The notes under the pieces are model-generated. The model worked only from the letters and a program-made list of their open reading frames with translations. It did no database searches and was not told the DNA's origin. From a virus, in IMG/VR virus record IMGVR_UViG_3300045125_000071, positions 186,001-250,000 of that record: a DNA stretch of 64,000 nt; one strand, written 5' to 3'. Each line of letters starts with the position of its first letter. Positions within the stretch are counted from its first letter, which is position 1. Shown piece after piece: positions 5,074 to 55,294 of the stretch. Both the position numbers and the translations under genes were made by a program.

Positions 5074-5296
5074 GTGTTTGGTTGTAAAATTTTTCAATAT
5101 ACGGTGCTTCTACTTTTGTCAACCCCCAATTTTCAGCAACCTTGACACCAAATTCAATCATACGCTCCTTCTCCATTTGTTTTGCTCTTTCAAATAATCC
5201 TTCATACGCCATCTCCTGTTCGTGAGTGAAACTATCGTACAAACATTCCCGTAGCCAATCAACTGCCGTCTGTTGTGCCATATTATTATTTTGCAT
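5057..5296 (-). CDS. TAVxWL/YYN paralogue family
   Basis: Reads MQNNNMAQQTAVDWLRECLY, then FERAKQMEKERMIEFG and KFYNQTHGTEQ, the three signature elements of the family at 4705 and 7784. As sequenced it is in frame with the upstream membrane protein (5294-5482); the fusion is probably due to a lost or gained base, since the two parts have unrelated character and the core has its own ATG at 5296. Confidence 0.55.
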   Translation of the reverse strand: MQNNNMAQQTAVDWLRECLYDSFTHEQEMAYEGLFERAKQMEKERMIEFGVKVAENWGLTKVEAPYIEKFYNQTHGTEQ

Positions 5297-5482
5297 CGGT
5301 GTTTTTATCTTGAGTTTTGATATCAAGCCTTTTCTTCGAACCTTCCAAAAAAACAATAAACCAAATATGGTTATAAACCACCTCAAAAATGGGACGGTAT
5401 CATGGTATATGAAATGTCTACATACATACAGACCAATCAAACCAGCATAAACATAAGATAAAAAACTGAACAACTTTCTCAT
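5294..5482 (-). CDS. Small membrane protein (fused in frame to next gene)
   Basis: About 62 residues with two hydrophobic helices (LFSFLSYVYAGLIGLYVC and LRWFITIFGLLFFW) and a basic C-terminus. No stop separates it from the following TAVxWL gene in this sequence; I infer a missing stop through an indel rather than a real fusion. Function unknown. Confidence 0.4.
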
Positions 5483-5703
5483 ATTTTACATTTTTTTATT
5501 TCATCTTCCACTTTGCTCCAATAGATGGCATATATGGCTGATACGTCATTGCTAAGGTTTTCTATAAGTTGTTTTTTTACCTCAGCACATACGTATAAAG
5601 CAATGTCTTTAGCAGTGAGATGATTCTTATCATCTGATGGTTCATGACACCATCTTGTATAAGCATCTTCATAAAGTCTGTCTGCCATTTTTTTCGGTGT
5701 CAT
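5479..5703 (-). CDS. MTPKE paralogue family, copy A
   Basis: 74 residues, MTPKKMADRLYEDAYTRW, then AKDIALYVCAEVKKQLIENL and AIYWSKVEDEIKK. The family pattern is MTPKE at the start, a central C-A-x-x-V(D/K) helix and a terminal Y-W-x-(E/K)-V-x-x-EI. Nearly identical in DNA to copy B at 6500-6721. The start overlaps the previous stop. Function unknown. Confidence 0.65.
   Translation of the reverse strand: MTPKKMADRLYEDAYTRWCHEPSDDKNHLTAKDIALYVCAEVKKQLIENLSNDVSAIYAIYWSKVEDEIKKCKI
5509..5703. repeat. Direct repeat, copy A (paired with 6523-6719)
   Basis: About nine bases in ten match the segment at 6523-6719 in the same orientation. The repeat covers almost the whole of an MTPKE-family gene, so it is a recent gene duplication bracketing the Ala-repeat gene. 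Confidence 0.75.
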
Positions 5704-6281
5704 AACTTTGTGATTTCTTGTTTTGTTTTATCAATAATTAGCTGTCCTATATATTTTCTACATATGTCTGCTGTTTCTAATTGATTTTGTTTTTTTGCAG
5801 CATCATAAGCAGCAGCAGTATAAGCAGCATAAGCAGCATCAGCAGCATAAGCAGCATCAGCAGCAGCAGCAGTATAAGCAGTATAAGCAGCATCAGCAGC
5901 ATAAGCAGCATCAGCAGCAGCAGCAGCAGCAGCAGTAGCAGTATAAGCAGCATAAGCAGCATCAGCAGCATAAGCAGCATCAGCAGCAATATCCAATTGT
6001 CTTCTATTTATTTTCCCTTCTCCAAAAGAAATTGCAGCATCAACTGCCGCTATACTTCTTTCATCCTTCATTAAGTGTCTGACAGTGTTCGCACAATGTC
6101 CTTTTGCTAACGTTATAGGTTGTAATTTAATGTCCACTCTTTGTGCTAACCACAAAAGCCAATCGCCTCTATGGCATTTTTCGACCACCTCTTCAATAGT
6201 CATATCACTAGCCCAGTCTTTGGCTTCTTGACAGGCATTTAGGTTTATTAGCAGTTGTGCGAATGTTTTTTCTGTTTTCAT
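5700..6281 (-). CDS. Ala/Asp/Tyr-repeat protein (putative-immunity-protein-like family)
   Basis: The start is taken at the ATG at 6281 (MKTEKTFAQLLINLNACQEA), which follows CGAATAAC. The N-terminal domain has HRGDWLLWLAQRVD and LAKGHCANTVRHLMKDERS, then AVDAAISFGEGKINRRQLD, a pattern known from phage and bacterial proteins sometimes labelled putative immunity protein. The C-terminal third is a degenerate repeat of AADAAYAADAAYAAY encoded by a GCA/GCT-rich tract, ending IGQLIIDKTKQEITKL. Repeat length is expected to vary between relatives. Function unproven. Confidence 0.6.
   Translation of the reverse strand: MKTEKTFAQLLINLNACQEAKDWASDMTIEEVVEKCHRGDWLLWLAQRVDIKLQPITLAKGHCANTVRHLMKDERSIAAVDAAISFGEGKINRRQLDIAADAAYAADAAYAAYTATAAAAAAADAAYAADAAYTAYTAAAADAAYAADAAYAAYTAAAYDAAKKQNQLETADICRKYIGQLIIDKTKQEITKL
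5803..5993. repeat. Trinucleotide-rich coding repeat
   Basis: On the plus strand, runs of agcagc broken by ataagc and atcagc units; on the minus strand they encode the AADAAY/AAYTA repeats of the gene at 5700-6281. The array is imperfect and in phase with codons. Confidence 0.85.
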
Positions 6282-10385: not shown

Positions 10386-10982
10386 TCTAATGAATTTGGT
10401 AAAAAAATTAATGTCGGATTTTTTTTCTGTATTTCTATTTCAGGGAATTGCTTTTTGAATTCCATAACATCAAAACGTTTTGTGATAAAATGAAAACCAT
10501 TTTTGGTTGGAATAATGGCTACTACTTTATCACCCAGTTGGTCTACAATAATCAATATGCTGTTTTATTGCCAATGTGGACATCCATAATCTGGTATCCA
10601 CATCAACGACCCACCTTTTCTCATTTGTTTTGATTTGACCAACAACGGAGTCAAAAACATTCTTTTGATTTATTTGTCCTGATTGAATCCGATTGACAAT
10701 CTCGGTTATCATGTTCATACCAACATCCCTATGATTCTGTTTCTGAACATGGATATATGCACGAGCCTTGAAGAATTCACACATCTGCTTTATCTCCTCG
10801 TATCTCTTCTCCAGGTATTCAATTGAGTTGATGCAATATGTTTTAATTGTCCTAACCGATTGATGATTATCTTTCTCACCTTCGGGTTGGTCCTTTTTCC
10901 TTTTGAGAATGAGACAAAAATAAAAATCACCCTCGTTTTCGAAGTTCAACAAGGGTTTGATTAATTCGATGTTGTCAATCAT
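10382..10982 (-). CDS. Conserved phage protein, possibly primase-polymerase-like
   Basis: Reconstructed across a shift near 10545. MIDNIELIKPLLNFENEGDF is followed by the helical SIEYLEKRYEEIKQMCEFF, WVVDVDT, IPTKNGFHFITKRFD and KNPTLIFLPNSLE. About 200 residues. The DxD in WVVDVD and the later NGFHFIT could correspond to archaeo-eukaryotic primase motifs, but this is a pattern resemblance only. The stop overlaps the RNA ligase start (ATGA), so the two are probably co-translated. Confidence 0.55.
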
Positions 10983-10991
10983 AAAATTATT

Positions 10992-11391
10992 TTATAGACG
11001 GATTTCAAATCTGTCCTTCATTTGTTGTATCTTCTCTTCAGGGACACCATGTTGGTTCACACCATTATGTCTATTTTCCAAAATTACTGAGAACACACGA
11101 TACCCATATGTTTCAGCCAATTTGTAGTAGTCTTCCATCTCCCATTCTTGGGTGAATGTATTTGATACCACAACTGGTGAATGGTCATATTTCATAAGGA
11201 ATTCGACCTCCATTTTGCACCAATTGTGTGCATCCTTTATTTTGGATGGTTCGAATTTGTAATTACCATCTCGGTCAACAAAGTACATATCCGCCTCCTT
11301 GTGACAAAAAGTCTTTTCGCCAACCAATAATTTGGCTAACGTGCTTTTACCGCTCCCAGGAATTCCTCTCAATAGTATTAGTTGTTTCATA
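10992..11391 (-). CDS. Polynucleotide 5'-kinase (P-loop kinase)
   Basis: Starts MKQLILLRGIPGSGKSTLAK at 11391. P-loop GIPGSGKST at residues about 9-17; ADMYFVDRDGNYKFEPSKI and HNWCKMEVEFLM follow, then PVVVSNTFTQEWEMEDYYKL and a C-terminal helix. At about 132 residues it matches the kinase half of T4 Pnkp without the phosphatase half. It supplies the 5'-phosphate that the ligase at 9305 needs; the phosphatase activity might come from one of the HAD proteins nearby (inference). Confidence 0.75.
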
Positions 11392-34250: not shown

Positions 34251-34480
34251 TTCCCCATAAGTGAATCTTGTATTTCATATTGCTTCTGAATCATAAAATC
34301 TATCTTTTGACTCATTGAATCCAATTTTATGTTTGTTAATTCCAACTGCTTTTCAACTGATGCTGAGTTAGAATGTGAATTTACTTTAACAACATCATTT
34401 ATTTTCTTGAGCATAATATAAAAAAATATGATTGTCACAATGATTGCAACAAAAAATTCGATATATTTTTGATTTTTCAT
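34238..34480 (-). CDS. Membrane protein with coiled coil
   Basis: 80 residues: a membrane helix near the N-terminus (IEFFVAIIVTIIFFYIML), then a coiled coil (VEKQLELTNIKLDSMSQKID). The start overlaps the stop of the receiver-domain gene by four bases, so it is probably co-translated and may work with it. Confidence 0.6.
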   Translation of the reverse strand: MKNQKYIEFFVAIIVTIIFFYIMLKKINDVVKVNSHSNSASVEKQLELTNIKLDSMSQKIDFMIQKQYEIQDSLMGNQRP

Positions 34481-35145
34481 GGTTTGAAGTTATCTAAACT
34501 TAGAGATGTGTTCACATTTTTATAGAATAGATATAAAAGATAAAAAATTATGATAATAGCACTTGTAATGACACCAGCGGTTGCTCCACGCATTATATTA
34601 TCACCGATATTAATTCCACTTTTTTCAATTTCTTCTTTGTTCTTTATTTTCTTTTCCATTCTTTTTTGTTCTATTAGTTGATATTCTTCATCCTGTTCAA
34701 AAATTTCAGGATTATTAACAACGGTTTTTAAAAGAGCCTTATTAGTTAGTTCGTTGAAAAAATATTCATTATTATGACAAGAGACTATGGCATTATAAAT
34801 CAATTCACTATCATCACTTTTTGTTAAATAAGAATTAGCACCAAGACTCATCATTCTACTAACCATACTTGTTTGATTATGCATGGATAATATGATGACT
34901 TTGATATTTCGATACTCTTCATTAGATTTCAATATTGGTAGTACCGCCATACCATCCATATTTGGCATGTTGATATCCAGCAATATCACATCTGGTTTTA
35001 TGTTTCTCAATTTATACAATAAATCGGAACCATCAACGGCCTCACCAACAATTTGAATATCATCCTTGGTTGATAATGCCATTTTAACACCTTGTCTAAA
35101 TAGGGTGTGGTCATCACAAATGAAGACTTTAATCGGACGATTCAT
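34477..35145 (-). CDS. Membrane-anchored response-regulator receiver protein
   Basis: 222 residues in one frame. The receiver domain (residues about 4-125) is complete: VFICDDHTLFRQGVKMAL (acidic pair), VILLDINMPNMDGM (phosphoacceptor Asp), VIILSMHNQ (Ser/Thr site) and SYLTKSDDSE (Lys). This is the NarL/FixJ type, but the expected DNA-binding helix-turn-helix is absent. Instead a charged linker (QKRMEKKIKNKEEIEKS) leads to a membrane helix (GVITSAIIIIFYLLYLFY) and a short tail. Output must be through the membrane or protein contacts. It lies just downstream of bilin-synthesis genes. Confidence 0.85.
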   Translation of the reverse strand: MNRPIKVFICDDHTLFRQGVKMALSTKDDIQIVGEAVDGSDLLYKLRNIKPDVILLDINMPNMDGMAVLPILKSNEEYRNIKVIILSMHNQTSMVSRMMSLGANSYLTKSDDSELIYNAIVSCHNNEYFFNELTNKALLKTVVNNPEIFEQDEEYQLIEQKRMEKKIKNKEEIEKSGINIGDNIMRGATAGVITSAIIIIFYLLYLFYKNVNTSLSLDNFKP

Positions 35146-35189: not shown

Positions 35190-35816
35190 TTAATAAAATT
35201 TTATTTTAGGGAATAGGATATTTTCCATAAAATAAGTTGCGGAGACCTCGCCAATCTTCTTTTTCAATACATTATATGTCCTGGGATTTTTTGATTGGAT
35301 TTCACAGTAATTATTCTGAATCTCAATGATTTTCCTATAATCACCAGTCTCTTTTATATTCAAAATTTCATTAATATACCAACTATACTTTGATATTGCC
35401 CAATTGCAAAATCGTTTTAGCTCATCCATTGATGATGGTTTAATCAATATGAACCTATCGCTAAAAACAGTTGCCCATTCTGGTAATGGTTTCCTTTCAT
35501 CCCAACTAACACCCTCATCAAAGGGGTAGCTTTTGAGACCAGGACTTAAATCCATGTAAGCACCAATTGGGTTGTTATCACTTATAATGACATCAAATCC
35601 AAAAATAGGTTCTGACTCAATGGTGTGGAAATGTTGTTATATGAAGAACATCGACTTTGGAATCTGTGTATCTTTCAACATGTGCCATCCTAAAGATGTC
35701 AGATTTGAAACGATAATTACTCCACCCATAATCTTCAGTTGTTAATTCAACAACATTATTTGTTGCATTGATTACGTCTAAAAACTGTAAGAAACATCAT
35801 CTAGAAAATTATACAT
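35190..35816 (-). CDS. Ferredoxin-dependent bilin reductase
   Basis: Reduces biliverdin to a phytobilin using ferredoxin. Starts MYNFLDDVSYSF; corrections near 35780 and 35625. Family features: FRMAHVERYTDSKVDVLHIT, SEPIFGFDVIISDN, GAYMDLSP (conserved aspartate near the bilin), LPEWATVFSDRFILIKP and the C-terminal NNYCEIQSKNPRTYNVLKKK and YFMENILFP. About 210 residues, slightly shorter than the usual 230-250. The start overlaps the heme oxygenase stop by eight bases (ATGTATAA). Which double bond it reduces (PcyA, PebS or PcyX type) cannot be told by eye. Confidence 0.88.
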
Positions 35817-36351
35817 TGATTGTTTTTTTGTGCAATTTTTCGAATATATCAATTATAAAATCATAACCTTTATTAACCTCATCGGCCCATTCATCTTTCT
35901 GTCGCTCTCTTATGATTTTTATAACTTCTTGACTATTTTCAAAATCGTACATTTTACCTGACCCTGGAATTTTAGACTTCATCATTTGTCCACCAAACAA
36001 CAAAGCTAAATAATTTAAATAAACATGGGGCCAAATTGTTTCTTCATCCAATGTAGATAGATAATTACAATAACTATCAGCAATTTTTGTTTCTTGGTCT
36101 ATGATATTATTTTGGTTATTACCATTATAGTACGCAAGATTCATTTCTACAATATCCTGATATATTTTACCTGACCTTAGAAATTCATTCGGTAAAAGAA
36201 TGATACTTTCTATTTTTTCGAATATCTTATGTTGTGATTTTAAATATTCTAAGTATTGTAATTGAGTTAATTTGCCATCAAACATGATGAGATTGAATGG
36301 CATCCTTTCAGCTAACTTATGTTTTATTGCGGTAGCTTCTCTTAAATTCAT
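35809..36351 (-). CDS. ho1: Heme oxygenase
   Basis: Opens heme to biliverdin, CO and iron using ferredoxin and oxygen. 180 residues, one intact frame. MNLREATAIKHKLAERMPFN contains the proximal histidine (H11), matching LREATxxxHxxAE of HO1. HVYLNYLALLFGGQMMKSKI is the distal-helix signature (Y-L-x-x-L-x-GGQ). Coupled to the downstream bilin reductase, the usual biliverdin-to-phytobilin pair. Confidence 0.9.
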   Translation of the reverse strand: MNLREATAIKHKLAERMPFNLIMFDGKLTQLQYLEYLKSQHKIFEKIESIILLPNEFLRSGKIYQDIVEMNLAYYNGNNQNNIIDQETKIADSYCNYLSTLDEETIWPHVYLNYLALLFGGQMMKSKIPGSGKMYDFENSQEVIKIIRERQKDEWADEVNKGYDFIIDIFEKLHKKTINV

Positions 36352-37150: not shown

Positions 37151-37161
37151 ATTATTATTAT

Positions 37162-37706
37162 TTAATCCCACCAGGAGCGAATATCAGAACCATCAAAATT
37201 TTTATAATTATACTCAGTTTTTTTGTACCTCTGATAATATCCCATAATTCTTCCCATTCCATTTCTTTTAATCTCTCTGCTCTGAGATATATTCTACGAT
37301 TATAATCAACATCGTCTGGATTGTTATCGTTAGTAAAAATATTAATTTCTTTGAGTTCACCCATTTCTTTCTCCGCTTTTTCGATATAATGGAACTCATC
37401 AATATTATTTAATATTTCTACTGCCCTCCGCATTTTTTTTAACTTCAGGTTTTTTGTCTCAGGTATTTCCATACCTCTTTTATCGGTTTCTTTCTCCATT
37501 AAAACCAAACAACGAGAAAACATTTGTAATGTATATGAATAATCCCACCATTGGAAATTCATTAATTCTTTTCTGAAAAGCCAAATATTTCTAAAGAAAT
37601 TTGGTATATCGTATCTAAAATAATGATACAATTTATACCACCAGGTTTCGTGCATTTTCAATTTTTCTAATGACTTAAAAAATGTGTCTGCAAAAGTGAT
37701 TCGCAT
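37162..37706 (-). CDS. Conserved phage protein (FADTFFKSLEKL)
   Basis: MRITFADTFFKSLEKLKMHE at the start, which superficially recalls RelE-type toxins, then YKLYHYFRYDIPNFFRNIWL, WWDYSYTLQMFSRCLVLMEK and MRRAVEILNNI. One correction near 37205 gives the more natural end KNFDGSDIRSWWD. About 181 residues. Family widespread in large phages, without known function; the toxin resemblance is confined to the first dozen residues. Confidence 0.6.
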
Positions 37707-37899: not shown

Positions 37900-39353
37900 T
37901 TAATTTGTGTAAACATATACGCAATCAATTGCCCTTGACATTGCAACATACTTTAATTGTTGTTCAACTTGTTTATCGCTGAACCTTTTAATCGTATCTT
38001 CAAGAACAAAAACTCTACTGTAAGTTCCGCCTTGTGATTTATGAATGGTATGTGCATAACCATAACCCAATGTTTGCTTTATTTTATTTTTTCCAGAAAC
38101 ATCTTTGATGTTTTTCATAAATGCTAATTGTGATTCAATCATTCTAGCTTCTTTAAAACAAATCATCGCCTTATAATAATCTTTATCTTTCATAAATTGG
38201 CCACCCATTCTATTTTTATCCGCAATAGCTTCAACAAATAATTGTATTTTATCATTACTTTCATTATTATCAACAACAAAAATATTTTTGAAACTATCCT
38301 CATCATTCATAAGGTTTTTAAGAATAAGATAAAAACCAGAAAATTCAACATACTCATTTTCTATTTTTACATTTTTAGTACCCTTATTAACTTCATGGAC
38401 CAGATAATCACCACTATTGATTATCAAGGGTTCTTTTGTATCATAATCAATATCAAAATTATTATAACCCATCAATATATCGTTGACAACAATTTGTTCA
38501 TCTGTTTGAAATAATACATTTCTCACATAATCGTTTAAACTGTTTACACCAGAATTAGTACCAGATAAAATCCTGAAAAAACAATTTATTTTCATTGAAT
38601 TCTTTAGATTTAAAATTCTCATTTATGATTTTTCTAGCACTATCCGAATCATTCACATAATGAACACTACCATTATCTCTAATATCTGTTATGTAAGAAA
38701 AATCACCACCTAACCTTAAAATTGTAGATTCTTTTAAAATTGGATTATCGCCAGTTCTTTCAACTTTGGTCAATTGTATTTTTTTACCTTTTCTAAAAAC
38801 TGGTGAAACATCAGAATCTTTTACAGGTTTAAGTTGTGCGGGGTCACCTACATATATGATTTTAATTTTATACTTCGTTTTTCCAAGTTTCCAAAAATCC
38901 ATATAAAGATTCTGACACCATGGAAGATTCATCAACTATTATAATATCTCCACGTTTAATTTTTTGGTTTATTTTTTTGCGAATTCTAAATCCTTAATAT
39001 CGTAATCACCATTTTCAAATTTTAATATCTGGTGCTAACCCAAATAAAGAATGTAGTGTTATTACTTGAGCACCAGGATTTTTCATTTTAGTTACGGCAT
39101 TTGCCCTATGCGTTGGACTTGTATAATATTTTTTTACTTTACGGTGTTGTAGGTATTGGTCAAACAACGCAATAATTGTTGTTTTTCCTGTGCCAGCATA
39201 ACCCAAAAGTGTTATTTGGTTATCAAATTTTTCAGGATTTTCAATAAATTCTTCTAATTTTAATAACGCGTTTTTTTGTTCATCATTTAAACCAAATGAT
39301 AAATTTATGCTAAAACCATTTTTAAATTTGAATACATTCTTATTTTTTGCCAT
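37900..39353 (-). CDS. dda: Dda-like SF1B DNA helicase
   Basis: About 475 residues across three shifts (near 39015, 38935 and 38580). Motifs in order: LLGYAGTGKTTIIA (Walker A), TSPTHRANAV (Ia), TLHSLFGLAP, IIIVDESSMV (Walker B, DESS), YVGDPAQLKPV (III), KVERTGDNPI, YGYAHTIHKSQGGTY (V) and KYVAMSRAID (VI). RecD2/Dda family 5'-3' helicase, used in phage replication and strand displacement. The gene order with the small KOW-like protein downstream suggests an operon. Confidence 0.85.
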
Positions 39354-51837: not shown

Positions 51838-52074
51838 ATGGAAAGAGATTTAACTAAATTGACGAGTGTTAAGATTATTAAAAAAATTATCTTGAATTCA
51901 AGAAAAACAACAATAAATACGGATTTAACATTACAGAAATTTGTTAATAGAACTATTGATTTGTATATGAGAGATTCTGATTTTAGAGAGAAAGTGAACT
52001 CTCATGAAACAAATGGAATAAAGAATTCAAAAGTATTAATAAATGAAGAAAAAGAAAATACTGTTATTGTCTGA
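51838..52074 (+). CDS. Ribbon-helix-helix-like small protein
   Basis: 78 residues: MERDLTKLTSVKIIKKIILN, TINTDLTLQKFVNRTIDLYM and RDSDFREKVNSHE. The KLTSVK strand followed by two helices, with SLQKxVNRxxxLYLxDxxFR, matches short Arc-like proteins common ahead of glycosyltransferase genes in T4-like phages. It overlaps the next gene by 32 bases. A regulator of this cluster is possible but unproven. Confidence 0.55.
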   Translation: MERDLTKLTSVKIIKKIILNSRKTTINTDLTLQKFVNRTIDLYMRDSDFREKVNSHETNGIKNSKVLINEEKENTVIV

Positions 52075-53427
52075 TGATTTAAGGTCAATGAGTGGTGTGG
52101 CAACAATGTCCAAAGAAATTGTTGTTGGTACATGTTTAAAATATGATTGGATTCAAGTGGGTTCAATGATTAATCATCCTGATTATGGTAAATTAATAGA
52201 TGTTAGTGAAGATTTAAGAAAACTTTATAATAAAGACGATATTAATGTTAAAATTCTAGCATATAACAATTATGGTGATATTCTCTTAATAAGAGAACTT
52301 ATCAAACATGAAAAACCAGATGCCATAATGCATTTTACAGACCCGCACTATTGGCAATGGTTATATGATGCTGAACATGAAATAAGACAACATGTTCCAA
52401 TTCTATTTTATCATGTTTGGGACAATGTGCCAGACCCAATATACAATAGAGATTATTATGAAAGTTGCGATTGGATTGGTTGTATATCAAAACAAACATT
52501 TGGTATTGTGCATCGAGTTGGAAAATTAGACATTTCAGATACATTTATACCATTAACAGATGACCAAATAAAATATGTTCCTCATGGAATCAATTCAAAT
52601 GTTTTTAAACCTGCACAAGTTAGTGATGACATCAAAATATAATTTATGATAAAGATTATGAATTCGTTTTATTTTTCAACAATAGAAACATAAGAAGAAA
52701 AAACCATCGGATGTAATATATGCATATAAAGTTTTTTGCGACCAATTTACCAAAGGAAAATCTGATAGGTGTTTATTATTAATGCATACAACACCTATAG
52801 ATGAAAATGGTACGGATTTGATTACGGTAAAGAGAAGCTTTATGTCCAGATTACAATGTGAAAATACTTAACAGTAAAACTTCAACAAGAACAATTAAAT
52901 GAATTATATAATGTTGTTGATTGTACTAATTAACATCTCAAATAATGAAGGCTTCGGTTTAACAACATGCTAGAAAGTATAATGGCTGGAACACCGATTA
53001 TCGTTAATGTAACAGGCGGATTACAAGACCAATGTGGTTTTAACATGTAAATAGGTAAAGAGTTTGATGAATATGATTATATAAAATATGGTTCATTGCA
53101 TGAAAAGAAAAATGGGACTTTATATCACACGGTGAATGGGTGTATACCTGTTTGGTCAGTATCCCATAGCTATAAATGGTTCACCATTAACACCATACAT
53201 TTTTGATGATTCAATTGAACCTGGATGATGTTTCAGATGCTATAATGAAAATGTATAATTATGGTAAATCCAAAAGAAAAGAAATTTGGGCATGAAAGGT
53301 AGAGAATGGGCGATTAGAATCTCTCAAGTGATGCAGCATGTGTAAAAAAATGATTGAAGGTATTGAAGAGGTTATAAATAATTTCAAGAATAAAGAAAAA
53401 TATCAATTTATAAAATTATATGAGTAA
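52043..53427 (+). CDS. Glycosyltransferase, GT-B type (GT4-like)
   Basis: About 450 residues. The first 199 are clean: KKKILLLSDDLRSMSGVATM, DAIMHFTDPHYWQWLYDAEH, VPILFYHVWDNVPDPIYN and YVPHGINSNVFKPA (linker to the C-terminal domain). The rest (52643-53427) needs roughly ten corrections but keeps INISNNEGFG, ESIMAGTPIIVNVTGGLQDQ, and ends KYQFIKLYE. The EGFGL...ESIMAGTPI stretch is the donor-sugar site of GT4-type enzymes. Start overlaps the upstream gene. Confidence 0.75.
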
Positions 53428-54675
53428 ACCGTTTTTATTATTTAGAGCACCAGTTGAAACAATATCTGGTTATGGGGCGCATTCAAGAGATATTTTAAAA
53501 TCATTATACAATACTAAATTATTTGATATTAAAATTGACAGTTGTTTGTGGGGAAATACTCCAATGACGGCATTAGATACTGAAAATGATTTGTTTCATT
53601 TGTGGATAAAAAATAATATGATTACGCATCTTGATAGACAACCAGATTATTATGTTCAAGTTACAGTACCTAATGAATTTCAAACATTAGGAAAATATAA
53701 TATTGGGATAACTGCTGGTGTGGAAACCACTATGATACCTAAAGATTGGATAACAGGTTGCAATAAAATGAATTTAATCATTGTACCATCCGCATTTTCA
53801 AAGAGTGTTATGTTAACAACACAATATAACGATATGTTACTAACAAAAATATGTACAAAAATAGATGTTATATTTGAAGGGGTTGATACTGGATTGTACA
53901 AAAAATTAAATTTTAATGAATTAAAAGATACCAAAATAAAAAATTATTTAGATGGTATTGATGCCGACTTTTGCTTCATTTTTGTTGGTCATTGGTTGAA
54001 AGGAGAACTCGGTCAAGATAGAAAAGATGTTGGAATGTTGATAAGAAAATTCGCTGAAGGTTTTAATGGTGTGGATAATAAACCAGCGTTGGTATTAAAA
54101 ACTTCTTCTGCGAATTTCTCGGTGAAAGAAAGGGAAAGATTAAAAAGAAGTATAAAAAACATATTATACGGTATTGAAAAACCCCCGTCTGTATACTTGG
54201 TTTTTGGTACGTTGGCGGATGATGAAATGAATGATATGTATAACCATCCAAAAATAAAGGCAATGGTTTCCTTCACAAAAGGTGAGGGTTTTGGTAGGCC
54301 ATTATTAGAATTCACTATGACGGGTAAACCTGTATTAACATCTAATTGGTCTGGCCATTTGGACTTTTAGACCCCGATTTATCAGTATTAATTAATGGTG
54401 AATTGAAAGATGTTCATCCCTCTGCCGTTGACCAATTTATTATTCAGGGTTCAAAATGGTTCCAGGTTGATTACGATGACGCGATATCTAAAATGAGAGA
54501 TGTTATAGCTAATTATGATTTATATTTAGAAAAATCGGAACTAATGAAAGTTAATAATATGAAAAACTTCTCATTGGGGGCAATGAACACAAAATTCAAT
54601 GATGTAATGAGTAAATGTCTTGGTGAACAAAGATTAAATGAAATTTCATTACCGAAATTAAATAAATTATCATGA
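53420..54675 (+). CDS. Glycosyltransferase, GT-B type
   Basis: MSKPFLLFRAPVETISGYGA, YYVQVTVPNEFQTLGKYNIG, TAGVETTMIPKDWITGCNKM, NLIIVPSAFSKSVML, FEGVDTGLY, FIFVGHWLKGELGQDRKDVG and VSFTKGEGFGRPLLEFTMTG. One shift near 54360 leads to LDPDLSVLINGEL and the end SLPKLNKLS. About 418 residues. EGFGRPxLEF is the nucleotide-sugar binding motif. Overlaps the previous gene by eight bases. Confidence 0.8.
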
Positions 54676-55294
54676 AATTAATTTATGCAATAACTGTTTC
54701 AACTGAAGAGGTTGAAGTATTGAATCTTATTCAATTCATAAAATCAAATTGTGATGACCAGATTGTTGTTCAGATAGATTCAACAAAAAGTAATGATTTA
54801 TTATTTAATAAAATTGCAAAATTAACATCAAGCGTTTACTTGTGTCCATTCAATAATAATTTTTCAGAATTCAAAAATAATTTAAATGAGACATGTCTAA
54901 ATTATAATGCTGATTTTGTTTTTCAATTGGATGCCGATGAAATGATAACCAATAAATTAATAGAGAATATCAAACAAATTCTGATTAACGATGCTAACGA
55001 TATTGATTTGATTTATTTACCAAGAATCAACACTGTTAGTGGAATTACACAAGAACATTTGATAAAATGGAAATGGTCAATGGATATCATGGGTAGGATA
55101 AACTACCCCGATTTTCAGGGAGAATATATAGACCAAACATGAAATGGATAAATAATATTCATGAGAGAATTGATGCTAAAAGAATTGCGTATATTGAGCA
55201 TGAAGATTATTGTATATTACATAATAAAACAATAGAGAAACAAATATCACAAAATCTTTTATATTCAACATTAAAAACTGATTTTATAATTTAA
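54672..55294 (+). CDS. Glycosyltransferase family 2-like protein
   Basis: MKLIYAITVSTEEVEVLNLI, DFVFQLDADEMITNKLIENI (DxDE metal motif at residues about 94-98), IYLPRINTVSGITQEHLIKW. After a shift near 55120: RIYRPNMKWINNIHERIDAK, HEDYCILHNKT. About 207 residues. GT-A fold of the type that follows FQLDADE with a conserved xxWxxxIHE. Confidence 0.7.

Follow-up and report, generated by a model that had tools for sequence, protein, structure and literature searches.

A heme oxygenase and PcyA-like bilin reductase cassette in a T4-like jumbo phage most likely of Bacteroidota

Introduction

Bilin genes in phages have mostly been explained by cyanobacterial light harvesting, and members of the ferredoxin-dependent bilin reductase (FDBR) family are carried by T4-like cyanophages (PcyA and PebS; P-SSM4, P-RSM4, P-SSM2). 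Viruses that infect cyanobacteria or Proteobacteria were already known to carry cassettes similar to the one described here. Pairs of heme oxygenase (HO) and FDBR have also been published for phages of non-photosynthetic hosts, namely the pelagiphage Mosig, CB_2 (Methylocystis proposed as host) and TP6_1, which carries valaS (Methyloparacoccus) (PMC11480375).

Here we describe an HO-FDBR cassette within a 64,000-base window, the whole stretch of DNA that was analysed, which corresponds to bases 186001-250000 of the 251,358-base virus record G000. Like the window, the vHemO-vPcyA pair of CB_2 combines a phage HO with an FDBR lacking the Asp55 of PcyX in a phage with a proposed non-photosynthetic host, and phycocyanobilin (PCB) has been reported as its product (PMC11480375); CB_2 differs in its proposed alphaproteobacterial host (Methylocystis) and its linked 5-ALA synthase, and is compared here by description, outside the tree. 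The HemO-PcyX pair of Mosig (EXVC030M), also found in a T4-like phage whose host is not a cyanobacterium, resembles the window in that HO and a short FDBR are adjacent, but its reductase has Asp at the Glu76 position and falls in a separate, well-supported clade, phycoerythrobilin (PEB) being the product reported for PcyX. Mosig further differs from G000 in having a Fer2 ferredoxin, a neighbouring ferrochelatase and strong use of Shine-Dalgarno (SD) signals. Cyanophage PcyA proteins share Glu76, His88 and Asp105 with the window reductase, yet they are 25-29% identical to L002 of the window clade, come from phages of cyanobacterial hosts and form a separate tree group, while cyanophage PebS lacks this triad. 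At the level of the whole genome, G000 (251 kb, T4-like) resembles the Bacteroidetes jumbo myoviruses in which a bS21 gene lies on the opposite strand to the portal and terminase genes; unlike in G000, heme or bilin genes are unmentioned for them in the text of that study (PMC9723584).

The window cassette is a new lineage within the already published phage HO-FDBR cassettes, and in the open-licence literature we found no paper on such a cassette in phages of Bacteroidota or Flavobacteria, nor any report linking a PcyA-type lineage, as defined by its residues, to jumbo phages of Bacteroidota. The explanation that we favour, with good though incomplete confidence, is that a T4-like jumbo myovirus of Bacteroidota carries a two-gene pathway from heme to a bilin, most likely to PCB.

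Results

Identity of the two genes

A preceding sequence-only reading of the window had proposed an HO followed by a bilin reductase from their family motifs, and both identities are now supported by the tree, by active-site residues and by folds (Table 1). The HO matched the Pfam family Heme_oxygenase (PF01126) with E=1.5e-10 and 41.7 bits, above the curated cut-off of 23. In an alignment of 17 sequences the HO1 signatures that had been quoted were recovered, the proximal histidine (H11) and the glycines G120 and G121 being invariant and GGQ being present in most. A model of the window HO made with 16 relatives reached a pLDDT of 92.3, and its top PDB matches were all heme oxygenases (TM 0.74-0.81, query length). 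For the reductase, the largest piece in the window matched Fe_bilin_red (PF05996) with E=1.1e-12 and 45.2 bits (cut-off 31), and every motif quoted earlier was found. The reductase chosen for modelling was that of relative L034 (pLDDT 88), for which PcyA structures were the best matches (TM 0.82-0.86, query length), ahead of PcyX, PebB, PebA and PebS. Structure modelling, which had been named as a possible source of refutation, thus gave HO and PcyA folds for the two families. Two intact relatives scored 85-97 bits against the NCBIfam PcyA equivalog NF002760, which was their best match but has a cut-off of 206; we therefore call the reductase PcyA-like.

Table 1. Features of the cassette and its surroundings (window positions unless G000 is given)
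Feature	Position	Strand	Basis
Response-regulator-like protein	34477..35145	-	PF00072 E=1.6e-25; N-terminal REC domain, C-terminal hydrophobic segment
Ferredoxin-dependent bilin reductase, PcyA-like, two frameshifts in record	35190..35816	-	PF05996, alignment, active-site residues
Reductase frame break 2	35612..35628, approximate, near ~35620	-	sequence, alignment
Reductase frame break 1	35780..35784, approximate	-	at or near T5 run
8-base overlap ATGTATAA, HO stop / reductase start	35809..35816	-	sequence; overlap in most relatives too
Heme oxygenase (HO1/HemO type), 180 aa, intact, single open frame	35809..36351	-	ORF, PF01126, fold model
Conserved phage gene upstream of HO	37158..37706	-	neighbour clustering, 12/71 loci
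bS21 gene, beside portal gene on opposite strand	G000 83456-83596	+	arrangement as in PMC9723584

The overlap of the two genes by eight bases, noted previously, was confirmed with the reductase start codon inside ATGTATAA, an arrangement that suggests coupled translation of HO and reductase. The first two scans yielded about 30 distinct relatives in which the reductase was an intact single frame of 205-234 aa that followed HO, usually with an overlap; a further scanned locus, L013, is cut off at the end of its contig. The remark that the reductase is short for its family holds in comparison with PcyA chains (239-253 aa), but not in comparison with its own phage clade. In L005, a second partial reductase C-terminus (10971-11057; 76% identical to the window) lies downstream of the full gene.

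Frameshifts in the record

The reductase is recorded in three frame pieces, MYNFLDDVSYSF, FLDVINATNN...TTFPHH and SEPIFGFDV...KIKFY. G000 as a whole is rich in frameshifts: ORFs of at least 100 aa cover a fraction of 0.57, compared with 0.85-0.91 in the comparators, and there are 7.9 ORFs of at least 300 aa per 100 kb, compared with 25-33. Frame changes were also seen within several other G000 genes, as judged by homologues running across them. Because frameshifts extend across the whole record, ORF calls in the window need care, and the breaks in the reductase are taken as assembly error, which is probably a better explanation than decay. Many G000 genes are split over frames, including those at 37900-38935 and 52043-55273 of the window.

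If the reductase were instead a decaying pseudogene, with HO working by itself, the two frameshifts would be its direct trace, and a Bacteroidetes MAG contig (L140) on which the reductase copy is truncated and interrupted by an internal stop would be in keeping with such decay. However, the excess of frameshifts affects the entire record, all catalytic residues are retained once the breaks are read through, HO still overlaps the reductase start and the gene is intact in relatives, so that we regard decay as quite improbable. We infer that the phage possesses an intact reductase gene that would be functional despite the frameshifts in the record.

Active site and predicted product

The phylogenetic placement proposed earlier as a check was carried out with a maximum-likelihood tree of 77 rows, from which the CB_2 sequence was left out. 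The window reductase fell in a PcyA-like phage clade of 37 rows (support 100/99), separate from the PcyX/Mosig clade and from cyanophage PcyA, with PebS of P-SSM2 as a distant outgroup; some basal branches of this tree are long and the order among its major groups is not resolved. A PebS identity was rejected on the tree position, and a PcyX identity both on the clade and on Glu at the position of Asp55.

Glu76, His88 and Asp105 (Synechocystis PcyA numbering) are kept in the window reductase and in all 37 rows of the clade, whereas the position of Glu76 is occupied by Asp in PcyX (Asp55), in Mosig and in most of their clade. Glu76 is specific to PcyA and is needed for reduction of the 18-vinyl group (PMC10151467), and a freshwater phage reductase without the PcyX Asp55 makes PCB (PMC11480375). 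Because the clade keeps Glu76 where PcyX has Asp, the product of the window reductase is predicted to be PCB and not PEB; product specificity, previously left open, is narrowed to that extent. The position of PcyA Asp220 is Pro in the window and Pro, Glu, Lys or Gln across the 37-row clade; it was not taken as defining PcyA because annotated cyanophage PcyAs also have Lys. Other residues at the Glu76/Asp55 position were Ser (L105, L109, L129), Cys (L120) and Gln (L091).

Host assignment

The host phylum of G000 is most likely Bacteroidota. This assignment, already made on the sequence-only reading, is supported by SD and promoter statistics, by bS21 and by core genes in common with the Flavobacterium phage immuto. 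SD-like signals occurred in G000 at 0.05 against 0.07 after shuffling, that is, there was no signal, and the same was true of immuto and of PAU, whose host has been reclassified to Sphingobacterium (PMC3738902). In contrast, SD-like signals exceeded their shuffled controls in the cyanophage S-TIM4 (0.24 vs 0.12), the pelagiphage Mosig (0.47 vs 0.16) and Mel-JY01 (0.31 vs 0.10).

Promoters of Bacteroides have TAnnTTTG as their -7 consensus (PMC4747536). In G000 the arrangement TTTG-N19/20-TAnnTTTG was observed 30 times, where the counts at neighbouring gaps would predict about 10, and 63% of these sites lay 5-150 bases upstream of an ORF, compared with 16% of random positions. The related record G001 showed the same peak, while Mel-JY01 and S-TIM4 did not. 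The Bacteroidota isolates PAU and immuto also lack it, so the peak is supportive of a Bacteroidota host but not required. The placement of bS21 by the portal gene is known from phages whose predicted hosts are Bacteroidetes of freshwater (PMC9723584).

By ORFs in common with G000, the closest isolate was Mel-JY01 (PP395634.1; 32 ORFs), recorded as a phage of Microcystis elabens, followed by immuto (26), Mosig (9) and S-TIM4 (6). Together with the occurrence of pcyA in cyanophages, this closeness to Mel-JY01 could be read to mean that the host is a cyanobacterium and the cassette an ordinary cyanophage one. We consider this very improbable: G000 lacks the SD signals that Mel-JY01 and S-TIM4 both use and has the Bacteroidota promoter peak that both lack, it has only six ORFs in common with S-TIM4, and the cyanophage PcyAs form a tree group of their own. 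Mel-JY01 thus has core genes in common with G000, yet it uses SD signals, unlike G000 and immuto.

When contigs were pooled according to the subclade of their reductase, SD signals were absent and the promoter peak was present in A and B. Subclade C was weak; in D and in the PcyX-like E, SD use was strong and the promoter peak was missing. The exception in subclade A was L009, which is joined to the window in the tree and lies on a contig with an SD signal of 0.35; because of these signals, the cassette does not seem to be confined by host boundaries.

Distribution and neighbours of the cassette

When the C-terminal 121 aa of the reductase served as query, 16 viral loci matched; with HO as query 32 did, and at least 574 matching stretches were found in IMG/VR. 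The sequence-only reading had treated a bilin cassette in a non-photosynthetic host as a surprise; its Bacteroidota host is upheld, but the surprise was overstated, since such phage cassettes have been published (PMC11480375) and matches in IMG/VR are this numerous. All 71 loci that were analysed contained both HO and the reductase, and every other neighbour gene recovered by clustering was present in at most 14 of these. With these counts and those of the two scans, the cassette is no chance finding. One such neighbour, the conserved gene upstream of HO, is represented in L035 and L037, for example, by a homologue some 320 bases upstream of HO, which supports the view that the cassette sits on this molecule.

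The response-regulator-like gene lies 44 bases downstream of the reductase, and its link to the cassette is positional only. No DNA-binding domain was found in its product, and outside the window a homologue occurred only in L085, where some 6 kb separate it from the reductase; a response regulator as a general part of the cassette was rejected on this ground. No recognisable Fer2 ferredoxin, PHY (phytochrome) or GAF domain, or phycobilisome-type protein was found in G000.

In most of the PcyX-like contigs among L097, L098, L105, L106, L110-L112, L120, L124, L128-L130 and L137, genes for an IbpA-type small heat shock protein and for ClpS lie upstream of HO-PcyX. In subclade C (L018, L022, L024, L025, L028, L038) a GroES-like gene lies downstream of HO-reductase, with a GroEL gene in some.

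Role of the reduced bilin

From the family identities of the two proteins, a route from heme through biliverdin to PCB is expected, the activity of both enzymes being predicted from sequence. HO would open host heme to give biliverdin IX-alpha, iron and CO, and the PcyA-type reductase would then use four electrons from host ferredoxin to convert biliverdin, most likely into PCB. The reduced bilin could bind as a ligand to some protein of the host or the phage, or it could bring heme turnover to a safe end. We lean towards this end product as the selected trait, because the reductase was present in all 80 HO-seeded viral loci (best 80 of 415, drawn from the same collection as the 71 loci above), so that iron release would probably not be the only thing selected. 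Moreover, the pairing of HO with FDBR across subclades with differing expression signals implies a shared reason for making reduced bilin during infection.

The principal competing account is heme or iron salvage, in which HO frees iron for iron enzymes of phage or host and the only task of the reductase is to remove biliverdin. Iron salvage has been raised for such phages (PMC11480375), no phage bilin acceptor was found in G000, and in a sample of 118 Bacteroidota genomes a host HO (E<=0.001) was absent from 106 and present in 12; since most lack HO, the phage enzyme would add a new heme-opening route. However, HO alone suffices to obtain iron, the reductase step consumes a further four electrons, and no HO-only locus was found among the best 80 of 415 HO-seeded loci. 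Of the two uses suggested earlier, a bilin chromophore or heme/iron release, iron release by itself is therefore disfavoured, and we rate salvage as a serious but less probable explanation than selection for the reduced bilin.

PHY domains were detected in 9 of the 118 genomes, and by coordinates all nine have HO within about 2 kb of the PHY domain. Phytochromes accompanied by HO without a reductase would be biliverdin phytochromes, and the phage would accordingly shift the biliverdin pool to PCB. Infection might in this way alter host light sensing, with PCB as the chromophore of a host phytochrome; PCB made by the CB_2 phage enzymes does assemble a working phytochrome (PMC11480375), and the REC-domain gene lies downstream of the cassette. 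Yet over 90% of the sampled Bacteroidota lack a PHY domain and the REC gene is not a conserved neighbour of the cassette, which makes this use of PCB unlikely.

A reductase was found in one of the 118 genomes, as a truncated phage-like fragment on the MAG contig L140, and an intact reductase in none. Given this lack of an intact reductase and the presence of phytochromes in only nine genomes, light harvesting cannot explain these cassettes. The cassette marks a whole virus lineage whose hosts, most likely Bacteroidota, normally make no PCB. We tentatively propose, as a possibility rather than an expectation, that a lineage of Bacteroidota jumbo phages imposes a PCB pathway on reductase-less hosts, with PCB serving a non-photosynthetic role in infection through a bilin-binding protein or a host phytochrome.

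Finally, a scan of genome contigs with a narrower reductase alignment (A3) returned two loci, L140 and L141. The L140 fragment (5265-5732) may be a phage fossil or a product of chimeric assembly, and as a link to a Bacteroidota host it is suggestive only. L141 is an island in Falsiroseomonas with a phytochrome, HO and an E76 FDBR; like the window it pairs HO with such an FDBR outside cyanobacteria, but unlike the phage cassette it is adjoined by a phytochrome of its own.
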